From assembly GCF_013407955.1 (NCBI RefSeq), contig NZ_JACCBU010000001.1:992001-1056000 (forward strand): DNA of 64,000 bases, in the 5' to 3' direction. Below the pieces are notes generated by a model, which was not told the DNA's origin, made no database searches, and saw only the letters and a program-made list of their open reading frames with translations. Shown piece after piece: positions 23,222 through 44,570 of this stretch. This DNA is from Microlunatus parietis (GTDB lineage Bacteria > Actinomycetota > Actinomycetes > Propionibacteriales > Propionibacteriaceae). The number at the start of each line of letters is the position of its first letter. Position 1 is the first letter of the stretch. Both the position numbers and the translations under genes were made by a program.

Positions 23222-23286
23222 CCGCCGACTGGGCAGTTCAGCAGCGACACGCCGCGAAAACGCCTGCTTTTGTGCCCAGTCGGCGG
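23222..23286 (-). repeat. Post-stop structured repeat, copy A (behind pheT)
   Basis: Element of 65 bases with perfect 14-base arms (CCGCCGACTGGGCA and its complement) around a 37-base interior. The interior contains CAAAAGCAGGCG and GCGGCGTGTCGCTGC on the pheT strand, with an inner GCAG/CTGC helix. It begins three bases after the pheT stop codon. Copies B, C and D share the interior, while two stem pairs differ from B by compensatory changes. No U-tract follows, so it is not a standard intrinsic terminator. Confidence 0.85.
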
Positions 23287-23289
23287 GTT

Positions 23290-31070: not shown

Positions 31071-31125
31071 CCTCGCCCGCGGCCACGAACGCGCCGCACC
31101 GCAATTCCCGCCGGCCCGCTCCTCA

Positions 31126-31186
31126 CCGACCGGTCAGTTGTGCAGCGACACGCCGCCAAAACGCCTGCTTTTGTGACCGGTCGGCG
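31126..31186 (-). repeat. Post-stop structured repeat, copy B (behind the SpoU methylase)
   Basis: Perfect 11-base arms (CCGACCGGTCA and complement, 31126-31136 and 31174-31184) around a 37-base interior that matches copy A at most positions. On the sense strand it begins a few bases after the TAA of the methylase gene. Compared with copy A, two stem pairs have changed on both sides, which keeps pairing. It lies in the 119-base gap before the LLM gene. Confidence 0.85.
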
Positions 31187-31189
31187 GGT

Positions 31190-41800: not shown

Positions 41801-42511
41801 CTACCGGGGTTGGGTCACGGCCTGCGGTTGGGCCGCCGGCCGCGGGTTGCGTTCGAGCCGCCACCAGGCCACGAAACCGGCCAGGCAGAAGCCGCCGTAG
41901 ATCAGGTACATGATCGCCGACGGGTAGAAGCCGGCCGACAGCAGCAGCGGCACCCCGACCGCGTCCACCGCGATCCAGATCAGCCAGAACTCGACCCAGC
42001 CGCGGGCCATTCCGTAGGTGGCGAGGATCGAGCCGGTGAGGATCCAGGCGTCCGCCGCCGGACCCCAGGAGCCGAGGGCGGACAGGGCGAAGTAGAAGAC
42101 GACCCACAAGATCACCGCGGCGACCGCCAGTTGCAGCCGGCCCCGCCAGCCGGCCCAGCGCGGCTGCACGCCCGCCTTGTCGTCCTCGTCGGCGTGGGCC
42201 TTGCGGTAGCCGTACCAGCGGATCCAGCCGTAGACGCTCACCGCGAAGAAGAAGATCTGCCGGCCGGCCTGGCCCCAGAGATCGAGGTCCTGCGGCGTGT
42301 GGAAGACGCCGCCGAGGAAGACCGTGAACAGCAGGATGTTGCCGATGATCCCGATCGGCCACGCGGCGACCCGGCGCTGCATGCCGAGGATCGCGCTGGC
42401 CAGCCCGAACCCGTTGCCGATGATCTCCCGCCACAGGATGCCGGGGCCGATGTCGAGCTTGGCATTCAGGAAGCCAAGCAGCAGTTCCGAGAATCCCACT
42501 GACCTCTCCAC
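41801..42511 (-). CDS. ribM: Riboflavin transporter, RibM/PnuC family
   Basis: Membrane protein of 236 residues with about seven helices, PnuC fold: WREIIGNGFGLASAILGMQRRVAAWPIGIIGN near the start and YGWIRW, WVEFWLIWIAVDAVGVPLLL later. PnuC members carry vitamins by facilitated diffusion. The FMN riboswitch directly upstream identifies this one as the riboflavin type (RibM/PnuX) rather than nicotinamide riboside. Two GTG starts are possible, 42511 and 42499; the second has GGAGAGG close upstream. No rib biosynthesis genes adjoin it. Confidence 0.85.
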   Translation of the reverse strand: MERSVGFSELLLGFLNAKLDIGPGILWREIIGNGFGLASAILGMQRRVAAWPIGIIGNILLFTVFLGGVFHTPQDLDLWGQAGRQIFFFAVSVYGWIRWYGYRKAHADEDDKAGVQPRWAGWRGRLQLAVAAVILWVVFYFALSALGSWGPAADAWILTGSILATYGMARGWVEFWLIWIAVDAVGVPLLLSAGFYPSAIMYLIYGGFCLAGFVAWWRLERNPRPAAQPQAVTQPR

Positions 42512-42552
42512 TCTCCGGGCGCATGCAGACCGGGGTGGACGGGGTGCATGGT

Positions 42553-42569
42553 CGCGCCAGGTCGGCGCG
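42553..42569 (-). promoter_or_regulatory. Hairpin in the ribM expression platform
   Basis: CGCGCC-AGGTC-GGCGCG, perfect 6-base arms, between the FMN aptamer and the start codon. It may be part of the switching structure. No U-tract follows, so control of translation rather than termination is more likely. Confidence 0.4.
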
Positions 42570-42582
42570 TGCCACGACCCCC

Positions 42583-42702
42583 GCGGTTCCTCCCATCCGG
42601 ACTTTCACCGTCGGTCGTGGAGTTTCACCACATCAACCGGCCCTCAGGCCGGGTCGCGGACTGTCACCGCCGGTTCGGACTTGCACCGACCCCGGAACAC
42701 GC
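42583..42702 (-). promoter_or_regulatory. FMN riboswitch (RFN element)
   Basis: The minus strand carries all the conserved RFN blocks in order: GGGGTCGGTGCAAGTCCGAA, CCGGCGGTGACAGTCCGCGA, a GGCC-TGAG-GGCC stem, GTGGTGAAACTCCAC, and CCGACGGTGAAAGTCCGGAT followed by GGGAGG. FMN binding normally turns expression off. It precedes ribM by about 70 bases, so riboflavin uptake should be shut down when FMN is plentiful. Confidence 0.95.
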
Positions 42703-42758
42703 GCGAGCTGAACGAACTCGTCACCACATCCTCCCACCCCCTATTCCCTTCCCCCATT

Positions 42759-42823
42759 CCGCCGACCGGTCACAAAAGCAGCTGTTTCTGCGGCGTGTCG
42801 CTGCAGGAGTGACTGGTCGGCGG
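42759..42823 (+). repeat. Post-stop structured repeat, copy C (orphan, inverted to copy D)
   Basis: Arms CCGCCGACCGGTCA and TGACTGGTCGGCGG pair over 14 bases (one G-U pair on the plus strand) around a 37-base interior. The interior shares CAAAAGCAG and GCGGCGTGTCGCTGCAG with the other copies. Unlike the other three it follows no recognisable gene end. It lies head to head with copy D, about 440 bases away. Confidence 0.85.
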
Positions 42824-43262
42824 AAGAAGACGCCGGTGCGCGGAGGTGGAGGTCGCGGTCGTCGTCGCCCCGGAAGGCCGCTCCGGAGGGGCCCGAGGCA
42901 ACGGACGGGCGGCACCCGTCGGGCCGGGCGCCGAGCTGACCGAGCCCCGGGGCATGTTCCTGGCTGGACGAAGTGGCGACCCCGGGCCACTGCCCGTCCG
43001 CATCCGCGACCGTTGCCCGCACCCGCGACCGTTGCAGCAGTCGCGGATCGGAGCAACGGTCGCAGATCGGAGGTACGGCCGCGACCCAGTCCACCGCCCG
43101 GTCACGTCGCACCACCCCCGCCGCGAAGTCCGCGACCGTTACACCCATCAGCGACCGTTGCAACGGTCGCGGTTCGAAGGAACGGTCGCGGATCGATGGA
43201 GGTCGCGGTCGCCCACTCGCCCTCGGCGATCGAACTGCTCACCCCGATCGAACTGCCCCCGA
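42824..43262. repeat. Non-coding block with duplicated GCGACCGTT palindrome arrays
   Basis: This gap of about 440 bases holds seven exact copies of GCGACCGTT or its complement at 43006, 43025, 43055, 43132, 43151, 43162 and 43181. They form two arrays with the same order (forward, forward, reverse, reverse; sites 19 bases apart), offset by 126 bases; the first array has one decayed site at 43036. The second array contains a perfect 20-base palindrome (43151-43170). TGGAGGTCGCGGTCG is also repeated directly at 42847 and 43197. Open frames across the block look like artefacts. Confidence 0.75.
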
Positions 43263-43325
43263 TCGACCGGTCACCTCTGCAGCGACACGCCGCAGAAACG
43301 GCTGCTTTTGTGACCGGTCGGCGGG
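43263..43325 (-). repeat. Post-stop structured repeat, copy D (behind mshC)
   Basis: Arms CGACCGGTCA and TGACCGGTCG (plus one T-G pair) surround a 37-base interior that is closest to copy C. On the mshC strand the element begins within five bases of the TAA stop. It is inverted relative to copy C. Confidence 0.85.
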
Positions 43326-43328
43326 TCT

Positions 43329-44570
43329 TTAGGAGAGGCGGATGCCGAGGAGGGCGTCGGTGGCGCTGGCGATCAGGGCGGGGCCTTCGGCGTCGTCGCC
43401 GTCGATGGTGAGGGAGGCGCCGGCCCAGGCGTCGATGGCGGCCACGGCGGCCGGGGCGTCGAGGTCGTTGCGGAGGGCCTCGCGGACCTTGGCCAGGGTC
43501 TCGGCGGCGCCGACTCCGGCATCCCGACGGACGGCCTCGCGCCACTGGTCCAGTCGCTCGGTGGCCTCGGTGAGCAGGTCGGGGGTCCAGGACCAGTCGG
43601 CCCGGTAGTGCTGGGAGAGCAGGGCCAGCCGGATCGCCATCGGGTCGGCGCCCTGACCGCGGAGCCGGGAGACCAGTTCGAGGTTGCCCTTGGACTTGGA
43701 CATCTTCTCGCCGTTCAGGGCGACCATCCCGCTGTGCACGTACGCCTTCGCGAACTCGCGCCCGGTCGCCACCCGGCCCTCGGCCGCGCACATCTCGTGG
43801 TGCGGGAAGATCAGGTCGCGGCCGCCGCCCTGCACGTCGAACTCCGGACCGAGGTAGCGCAGCGCGATCGCGGTGCACTCGATGTGCCAGCCCGGCCGGC
43901 CGGCACCGAGCACGGACTCCCAGCTCGGCTCGCCGTCGCGGGCCAGCCGCCAGACCAGGCAGTCCAGCGGGTCCTTCTTGCCGGCCCGGTCCGGATCGCC
44001 GCCGTTCTCGGCGAAGATCGCGACCGCCTCGGCGCCGAGCTTGGACAGGCTGCCGAAGCGGCCGTCGGCGGCCCGGGCGAAATACAGGTCCGGATACTCG
44101 GGATCGGCGACCGGATAGATCGCGCCGTCGATCTCGCGCAGCTTCTCGATCAAGGCGACGACCTCGTCGATCGACTCGACGGCGCCGACCAGGTGGTCCG
44201 GCGGCAGCACGTTGAGCGCGGCCAGGTCGGTCCGGAACAGCTCGGTCTGTTCCTCGGCCAGGTCGGCCCAGTCGACGCCGGTCTGCTCGGCCCGTTCCAG
44301 CAGCGGGTCGTCGACGTCGGTGACGTTCTGTACGTACGCGACCTCGAGGCCGGCGTCTCGCCAGGACCGGTTCAGCAGGTCGAACGCCACATAGGTGTTC
44401 GCGTGCCCGAGGTGCGTCGCGTCGTACGGCGTGATGCCGCACACGTACATCCGGGCCGTTCCGGAGGTCGGACCGACGGGGACGACGGCCCCGCTGGAGG
44501 TGTCGTACACCGAGACCGTTCCGTCCGATCCCGGCAGGCGGGAGATCCCCGGAGCGCGCCATGCCTGCAT
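43329..44570 (-). CDS. mshC: Mycothiol ligase (cysteine--GlcN-Ins ligase)
   Basis: Joins cysteine to GlcN-inositol in mycothiol synthesis, the main thiol of actinobacteria. 413 residues, the usual length. It resembles cysteinyl-tRNA synthetase but starts MQAWRAP, as MshC proteins do, and lacks the C-terminal tRNA-binding part. Zinc and ATP motifs: [16 protein letters not shown] (HIGH type) and EKMSKSKGN. In many actinobacteria it neighbours the SCO1664, DUF3090, phosphatase and uppP genes, all found within the next 9 kb here. Repeat copy D follows its stop. Confidence 0.95.

Follow-up and report, generated by a model that had tools for sequence, protein, structure and literature searches.

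The window analysed here is a stretch of 64,000 nucleotides (G000:C1:992001-1056000) from a genome of Microlunatus (Propionibacteriaceae, Propionibacteriales), which consists of a single contig of 7,240,126 bp (7.24 Mb) and is referred to as G000. Between a gene of the mshC type and a ribM/PnuC-type transporter gene lies a block of repeats (window positions 42758-43325), in which an inverted pair of imperfect hairpins of 66 nt, termed H, encloses two palindromes of 68 nt, termed A; the latter are the GCGACCGTT arrays. The boundaries of these parts were taken from family models of H and A. The features of the locus and two further H copies of the window are as follows.

23222..23287, minus strand: H hairpin, probably the copy designated A earlier; sense, 2 nt past the TGA of a pheT-type gene
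31123..31188, minus strand: H hairpin, probably the earlier copy B; sense, 1 nt past the TAA of a SpoU-family rRNA methylase gene
41801..42511, minus strand: ribM/PnuC-type transporter gene (PF04973), downstream of the riboswitch
42581..42704, minus strand: FMN riboswitch of the ribM/PnuC-type gene (RF00050, 90.3 bits), beside the antisense H copy C
42758..42823, plus strand: H hairpin copy C, antisense to both neighbour genes and facing copy D; 53 nt outside the FMN riboswitch, with a promoter presumed in between
43001..43068, strandless: A palindrome, array 1, with exact GCGACCGTT sites at 43006 (+), 43025 (+) and 43055 (-)
43127..43194, strandless: A palindrome, array 2, with exact GCGACCGTT sites at 43132 (+), 43151 (+), 43162 (-) and 43181 (-) and a 20-bp palindrome inside
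43260..43325, minus strand: H hairpin copy D, sense to mshC; 3 nt from the TAA stop to its first base
43329..44570, minus strand: mshC-like gene with a class I Cys-tRNA-synthetase-type domain and H copy D at its end

The name mshC for the gene at 43329..44570 follows the earlier reading and our own judgement, not a family match; the nearest named relative of the MshC-type protein is found in Microlunatus speluncae (84% identity). A codon-score gene caller detected no gene between mshC and ribM. At the gathering score, Rfam recognized only the FMN riboswitch in positions 42000-44000; with E-values of up to 10, the block yielded 13 matches, all of them below gathering and the best with an E-value of 0.036.

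A sequence-only reading of this DNA had described two inverted copies, C and D, around some 440 noncoding bases, which agrees with the arms determined here: positions 42759-42819 and 43264-43324 are inverted with respect to each other, 61 nt long and 93% complementary, with 444 nt in between. The same reading had judged the interior to be non-random. The motif GCGACCGTT occurs seven times in the window, all occurrences being located within 43006-43189, compared to an expectation of 1.04; none of 100 shuffled sequences reached seven, and the judgement is upheld. The common plan of the two arrays, with steps of 19 bases and a distance of 126 bp, was likewise found, but array 1 contains just three exact sites, its third position being degenerate. 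The perfect 20-base palindrome that had been assigned to one array is GCGACCGTTGCAACGGTCGC, at positions 43151-43170.

The gap between mshC and ribM, for which a comparison with close relatives had been proposed, comprises 829 bp here, and 304, 309, and 328 bp in three relatives (L070, L068, and L069, respectively). The adjacency of the two genes in these relatives was established by a blastn match across the ribM start and the riboswitch, and their gaps gave no match to the H or the A model. The block is therefore extra in our genome, and the repeats are not needed at the mshC-ribM locus, since three relatives have neither of them there. In G004, the genome taken for M. speluncae, mshC has a different neighbour, and both H and A are missing at this place.

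The family models were built from 30 copies of H and 29 copies of A and were used to search the whole genome. H was found at at least 150 places; as every scored candidate matched (150/150), this count is a lower bound. The search for the GCGACCGTT array, also suggested earlier, yielded 147 strand matches among 150 scored candidates, which correspond to 74 places of A. Both families are predominantly intergenic (139/150 H and 73/74 A). The 150 H listed form 28 pairs of neighbours no more than 3.5 kb apart, 26 of which are arranged face-to-face. Only four of the 26 contain A; the interiors are alike over short stretches only, and these are A or other short repeats (best 40 matches). Most H copies have no close H partner and are located behind a stop codon, so that H is not the terminal repeat of one element. 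The earlier notion of one composite non-autonomous element, that is, of a MITE transposed as a single unit, is thus abandoned: H and A constitute two distinct dispersed families, the composite itself is not repeated, and what lies between the two genes is a nest of REP-like repeats from both.

When only H pairs in the same gap without a called gene in between are considered, G000 contains 20, namely 18 face-to-face and two direct ones. In ten of the 18 face-to-face cases the gap is flanked by tandem genes, and one H copy is antisense to both neighbours, like copy C. Both direct pairs originate from one tandem triplicate with steps of 214 bp. The corresponding regions of M. speluncae contain seven same-gap pairs (six face-to-face, one back-to-back). 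The triplicate (G000:C1:3855196, 3855410, and 3855624) comprises the only direct neighbours within 3.5 kb among the matches listed.

Other repeats were noticed in the course of this analysis. One face-to-face H pair (L182, G000:C1 ~1911.6-1912.0 kb) encloses a tandem array of the 16-nt unit GGGGCGAAGGCCAGCC. Six more dispersed, foldable, intergenic repeat families, with 7-18 detected copies each, occur in 1.07 Mb of G000 (e.g. L180, L183, L250, and L182); examples are TGTCGCGATT..ATCGCGACA and TCGAGTGTGA..TCACACTCGA. A family of near-perfect palindromes of ~160-180 nt (G000:C1 ~2771458, 2031226, and 7023033), to which a sequence in G004 (L384) is similar, is perhaps a MITE or the end of an IS.

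In order to relate the repeats to genes, the latter were called in 127 regions around H and A matches by means of a home-made codon-score caller, which was trained on G000, agreed with the ORF list on the stops of mshC and ribM, and places start codons only roughly. The G000 regions and a first set from G004 were selected for the presence of H or A. Eleven of the 150 H copies extend more than 12 nt into a called gene. Among the remaining 139, 109 follow a gene on the same strand, beginning at a median of 4 nt past its stop codon (three lie at 180-426 nt), and 30 occupy antisense or promoter-side positions. A stop codon is located within -15 to 20 nt of the 5' side of H in 99/150 copies and of the 3' side in 7/150, and divergent gaps account for only 8/149. 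Sense copies after a stop prevail also in the H/A-selected regions of M. speluncae (21/34, with eight in the opposite orientation and five sharing more than 12 nt with a gene), and a sense position after a same-strand stop was found for 6/11 copies examined in the genome G190 and for 3/3 in G031. Replication strand was rejected as the cause of the orientation: the replichore bias (26:45 vs 49:30) is weak beside the 99:7 given by the stop codon. A reading of antisense H copies as promoter boxes was dropped as well, the spacing, judged by eye, not being constant.

The position and orientation of H are accompanied by a link to the identity of the stop codon. TAA terminates 47/115 genes with H vs 36/740 others in G000, and 18/24 vs 16/335 in M. 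speluncae. Eleven ortholog pairs have H in just one of the two species; among these, TAA is present nine times on the H side and never on the H-less side, and both species use TGA in the two exceptions (324873 and 29742). Pair 950349 (TAG vs TGA), the twelfth, was excluded from this count owing to an overlap of H with the end of the gene. The left edge of H is C-rich and then A-rich according to base counts of 150 copies, and by eye this applies to antisense copies too; TAA may therefore be supplied partly by the H element. When filled and empty gene ends were viewed for target-site duplications, the DNA past the stop codon was, by eye, unalignable between the two species.

The distribution of both families among relatives is patchy. 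The G000 model of H matches 7/40 genomes, own genome included; among the scored candidates, of which the H scans covered 13-150 per genome, matches numbered 128/130 in G004, 37 in G016, 35 in G011, three in G031, and one each in G007 and G013. G011 and G016 belong to the own genus group. The A model matches 4/40 genomes including our own, with 76, 5, and 2 strand matches in G004, G006, and G002, respectively. A wider H model, based on 28 chosen sequences from five genomes and applied to 13 scored candidates per genome, matches 7/394 genomes of the class, again including our own, among them G190 (12 matches) and G031 (three), which represent another family of the order. The single places in G252, G306, G336, and G406 are palindromes without the asymmetric loop of H and were not counted as H.

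Between genomes, the stem of H changes on both sides while the loop TTTYNGCGGYGTGTC is largely constant. The inner stem reads GCAG/CTGC in 123/150 G000 copies (fixed register) and GCAC/GTGC in 24/34 copies of M. speluncae; CTCC/GGAG types occur in G011, TTCGGCG/CGCCGAA in one copy of G031, and TGACC/GGTCA types in some copies of G190. Both-side changes were seen at 12/23 stem pairs of the 28 chosen sequences, and the covariation is 0.263 vs 0.097 after shuffling (0/500) and at most 0.061 in slid controls; relatedness inflates such scores. The pairing changes are equally compatible with a hairpin of single-stranded DNA and one of RNA.

Within a genome, the copies stay alike. Five orthologous H copies each have a copy in their own genome at 0.89-0.94 identity; their partners in the other species rank 1, 20, 14, 8, and 25 of 34 by similarity, and orthologous copies are no more alike across the two species than random cross-species copies. 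The G004 regions selected for H or A, a biased set, contain five shared copies, plus one that has an insert in its loop. Ten H places were found in 786 kb of G004 that had not been selected for H, and 3/10 of the H-ended G000 genes with an ortholog in this DNA have H there as well. With ~10 H per 685 genes, sharing of ~1.4% is expected (p ~3e-4 using 10/700), so that some H copies are old. Among the shared ends in M. speluncae are those of the SpoU-family rRNA methylase gene and of the pheT-type gene, the stop of the latter being TAA there. Taken together, many H copies have been gained or lost. In seven copies, the apical loop contains an insert of the CCTGAGCYTGTCGAAGG type, which recurs in two forms (G000:C1 near 562475, 950349, 1509594, 2750860, 4540892, 6718529, and 6727451); at the site of one of these, a plain H is found in G004, suggesting that copying or conversion in place, or else an insertion event in the loop, has occurred.

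Where G004 lacks H, other hairpins may be found in its place. The G004 orthologs of 1213009 and 928168 end in a hairpin of a second stop-adjacent family, K, and those of 369675 and 324873 in a palindrome CCTGAGCCTGTCGAAGG; at the orthologs of 29742, 385037, and 459817 no hairpin was recognized in G004. K, with the core CAGAACTGAGTTG, occurs at 31 places in 1.19 Mb of G004 (L311-L330 and L352-L391), and its core was not found in 1.0 Mb of G000. The distance to a stop codon was measurable for 30 copies and does not exceed 25 nt in 20 of them (median 1.5 nt); 6/31 overlap a called gene. As judged by eye, K and H have the outer stem skeleton CCGA..GTCA/TGAC..TCGG in common. This interchange of hairpins agrees better with a general function of hairpins at gene ends than with a function of one particular sequence.

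No description of H or A was found in the open-licence literature; several known systems resemble them in part. The MIRU elements of mycobacteria are dispersed intergenic repeats that are inserted in sense orientation at stop codons and contain a small ORF. H is similarly dispersed and placed, and is a hairpin without a small ORF. Integron attC sites are imperfect hairpins with a variable stem that follow a stop codon in sense orientation. These features are found in H too, but H is dispersed and does not form one array. The attC core sites RYYYAAC and GTTRRRY occur in 12/150 (8%) and 5/150 (3%) of the H copies, compared to 0.8% and 1.2% of random intergenic controls; being above controls but far from general, they led us to reject H as an integron attC. 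A search of the genome for the integron integrase TIGR02249 gave nine partial matches, none over the cut-off; the 14 control genomes had none over it either, so that there was no positive control.

A further likeness is to REP/BIME sequences of the GTAG and CGTC super-families, which are described in the accessible parts of PMC3733652 and PMC12306157 as short, extragenic palindromes of high copy number, often paired, as H and A are. In the same sources, GTAG-type REPs have a transposase and CGTC REPs are without a dedicated one (PMC3733652), 446/4,072 predicted E. coli REPs are located within 15 nt of a stop (PMC12306157), and an effect on translation is reported for E. coli only at less than 16 nt from the stop (cited in PMC12306157). 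As far as these texts go, H and A differ from REPs in being 66-68 nt long rather than 20-40, and in lacking both the GTAG/CGTC foot tag (the consensus ends are CCCGCC and TCGGCG for H, CAnCCGCG and CGCGGATG for A) and a detectable Y1 transposase; H differs further in its strong sense orientation, its anchoring at stop codons, its link to TAA, and its Propionibacteriales host. Stem-loop sequence families, surveyed in 40 genomes including mycobacteria and a Corynebacterium (PMC2267715), are likewise dispersed and able to fold as stem-loops; the accessible text of that survey names no Microlunatus family and does not contain the term stop codon. Finally, hairpins that follow stop codons and lack a U-tract have been proposed as terminators on the basis of RNA-seq in 13 genomes (PMC8355165, in its accessible part). 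H shares with them the stable hairpin soon after the stop and the missing U-tract, whereas the present repeats form dispersed families of conserved sequence, the loop being largely constant and the distance from the stop mostly ~16 nt or less.

On balance, we favour the interpretation that H is an RNA hairpin at the end of messages, REP-like in character, which would act at the end of transcription or of translation. A transcript that enters a gap would read H mostly in sense and at the stop codon, and the terminating ribosome and the RNA polymerase would both meet a stable hairpin at the end of the gene. H could then end or cap the mRNA and shield its 3' end, and might be recognized via its largely constant apical loop. 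In a face-to-face pair, each H would be sense for transcripts from its own side, and for this reason the gap might be insulated at both ends. The data show the position and orientation of H, its link to TAA, the pairing changes between genomes and the likeness of copies within a genome; the action as RNA, on termination or on the ribosome, and the insulation are our inference. As at most three T per 8-base window were found in the first 12 nt of the flanks of 147/150 H and 143/148 A, neither repeat is a classic intrinsic terminator. The spacing of 4 nt fits effects on translation and on transcript ends alike, and the present data do not separate the two. The 30/139 H copies in antisense or promoter-side positions, the 5/11 copies of G190 that do not closely follow a same-strand stop, and the patchy occurrence of H among relatives run counter to an action as RNA.

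A possible, if rather doubtful, alternative is that H and A are selfish DNA of the REP or MITE type, served by an unknown or lost enzyme; adjacency to stop codons would then result from target preference and from purging from genes, and any RNA effect would be a by-product. The patchy occurrence of H (7/40 relatives, and 7/394 class genomes of which four have one palindrome-like place each), the high turnover with only three of ten ends shared in the sample not chosen for H, the two recurring forms of the loop insert, which suggest copying, and the missing block between the same genes in three relatives would all be accounted for. However, PF01797 (Y1/RAYT transposase) gave no match in our genome at E 0.001, compared to control matches in 5/14 genomes, and mobilization by a resident gene of the Y1 family was therefore discarded. 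The orientation of H follows the stop codon far more strongly than the replichore, and the excess of shared ends indicates that some copies are old. That the chief effect of H is to slow translation termination, which is reported for E. coli REPs within 15 nt of a stop, and to lower the output of the upstream gene, with TAA compensating as a strong stop, seems unlikely. It would conform to the start of H at a median of 4 nt past the stop, to the short range over which E. coli REPs act, and to the excess of TAA at H genes, but TAA could derive partly from the A-rich edge of H, and a reduced output of a housekeeping gene such as the pheT-type gene would be odd.

Of the 74 copies of A, 33 are located in convergent and 40 in tandem gaps, one is in a gene and none in a divergent gap, although such gaps make up 122/417 of those of at least 70 bp in the same regions. 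A stop codon lies within 60 nt of 38/74 copies and farther away from 36/74, half of the copies being 8-44 nt from it, and A often occurs as repeated copies in one gap. Because it is missing from divergent gaps and half of the copies are 8-44 nt from a stop, A is most likely a two-way transcript-end hairpin, whose symmetry would make it usable from both sides. That A is instead a cluster of four 9-bp sites for a DNA-binding protein seems possible but unlikely: the sites are conserved in sequence, their spacing is fixed, they recur at 74 places, and no covariation beyond that of shuffles was detected within the genome, yet none of 73 copies is in a divergent gap, where many regulators act, and half of the copies closely follow stop codons. 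Far less probable still is a composite MITE that spans 42758-43325 with H as terminal repeats, since, despite the inverted H at either end, a gap ~500 bp longer than in three relatives, and A inside three other H pairs (1836408-1837256, 4708321-4708674, and 5950542-5952226), pair interiors are unlike each other, A is present in just 4/26 pairs, most H lack a close partner, and face-to-face pairs in convergent gaps are a consequence of one H per gene.

A more far-reaching version of the message-end hairpin, which we put forward as speculative and hold to be unlikely as it stands, is that H represents a new class of mRNA 3'-end elements of Propionibacteriales: a module of TAA and hairpin, recognized in trans via its TTTYNGCGGYGTGTC loop, whose copies in a genome would change jointly, also in their stems, as though they followed a partner or a copying machinery. 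REP families in the literature are mostly from Proteobacteria (PMC3733652, accessible part). The present set stems from Propionibacteriales; its members are coupled to the stop codon and to the choice of stop, run in the direction of the gene, and resemble each other within a genome, with no visible Y1 enzyme. Two questions become testable with this set: whether stop-adjacent repeats affect translation or the ends of transcripts, and by what means dispersed hairpins of 66 nt stay alike within a genome.
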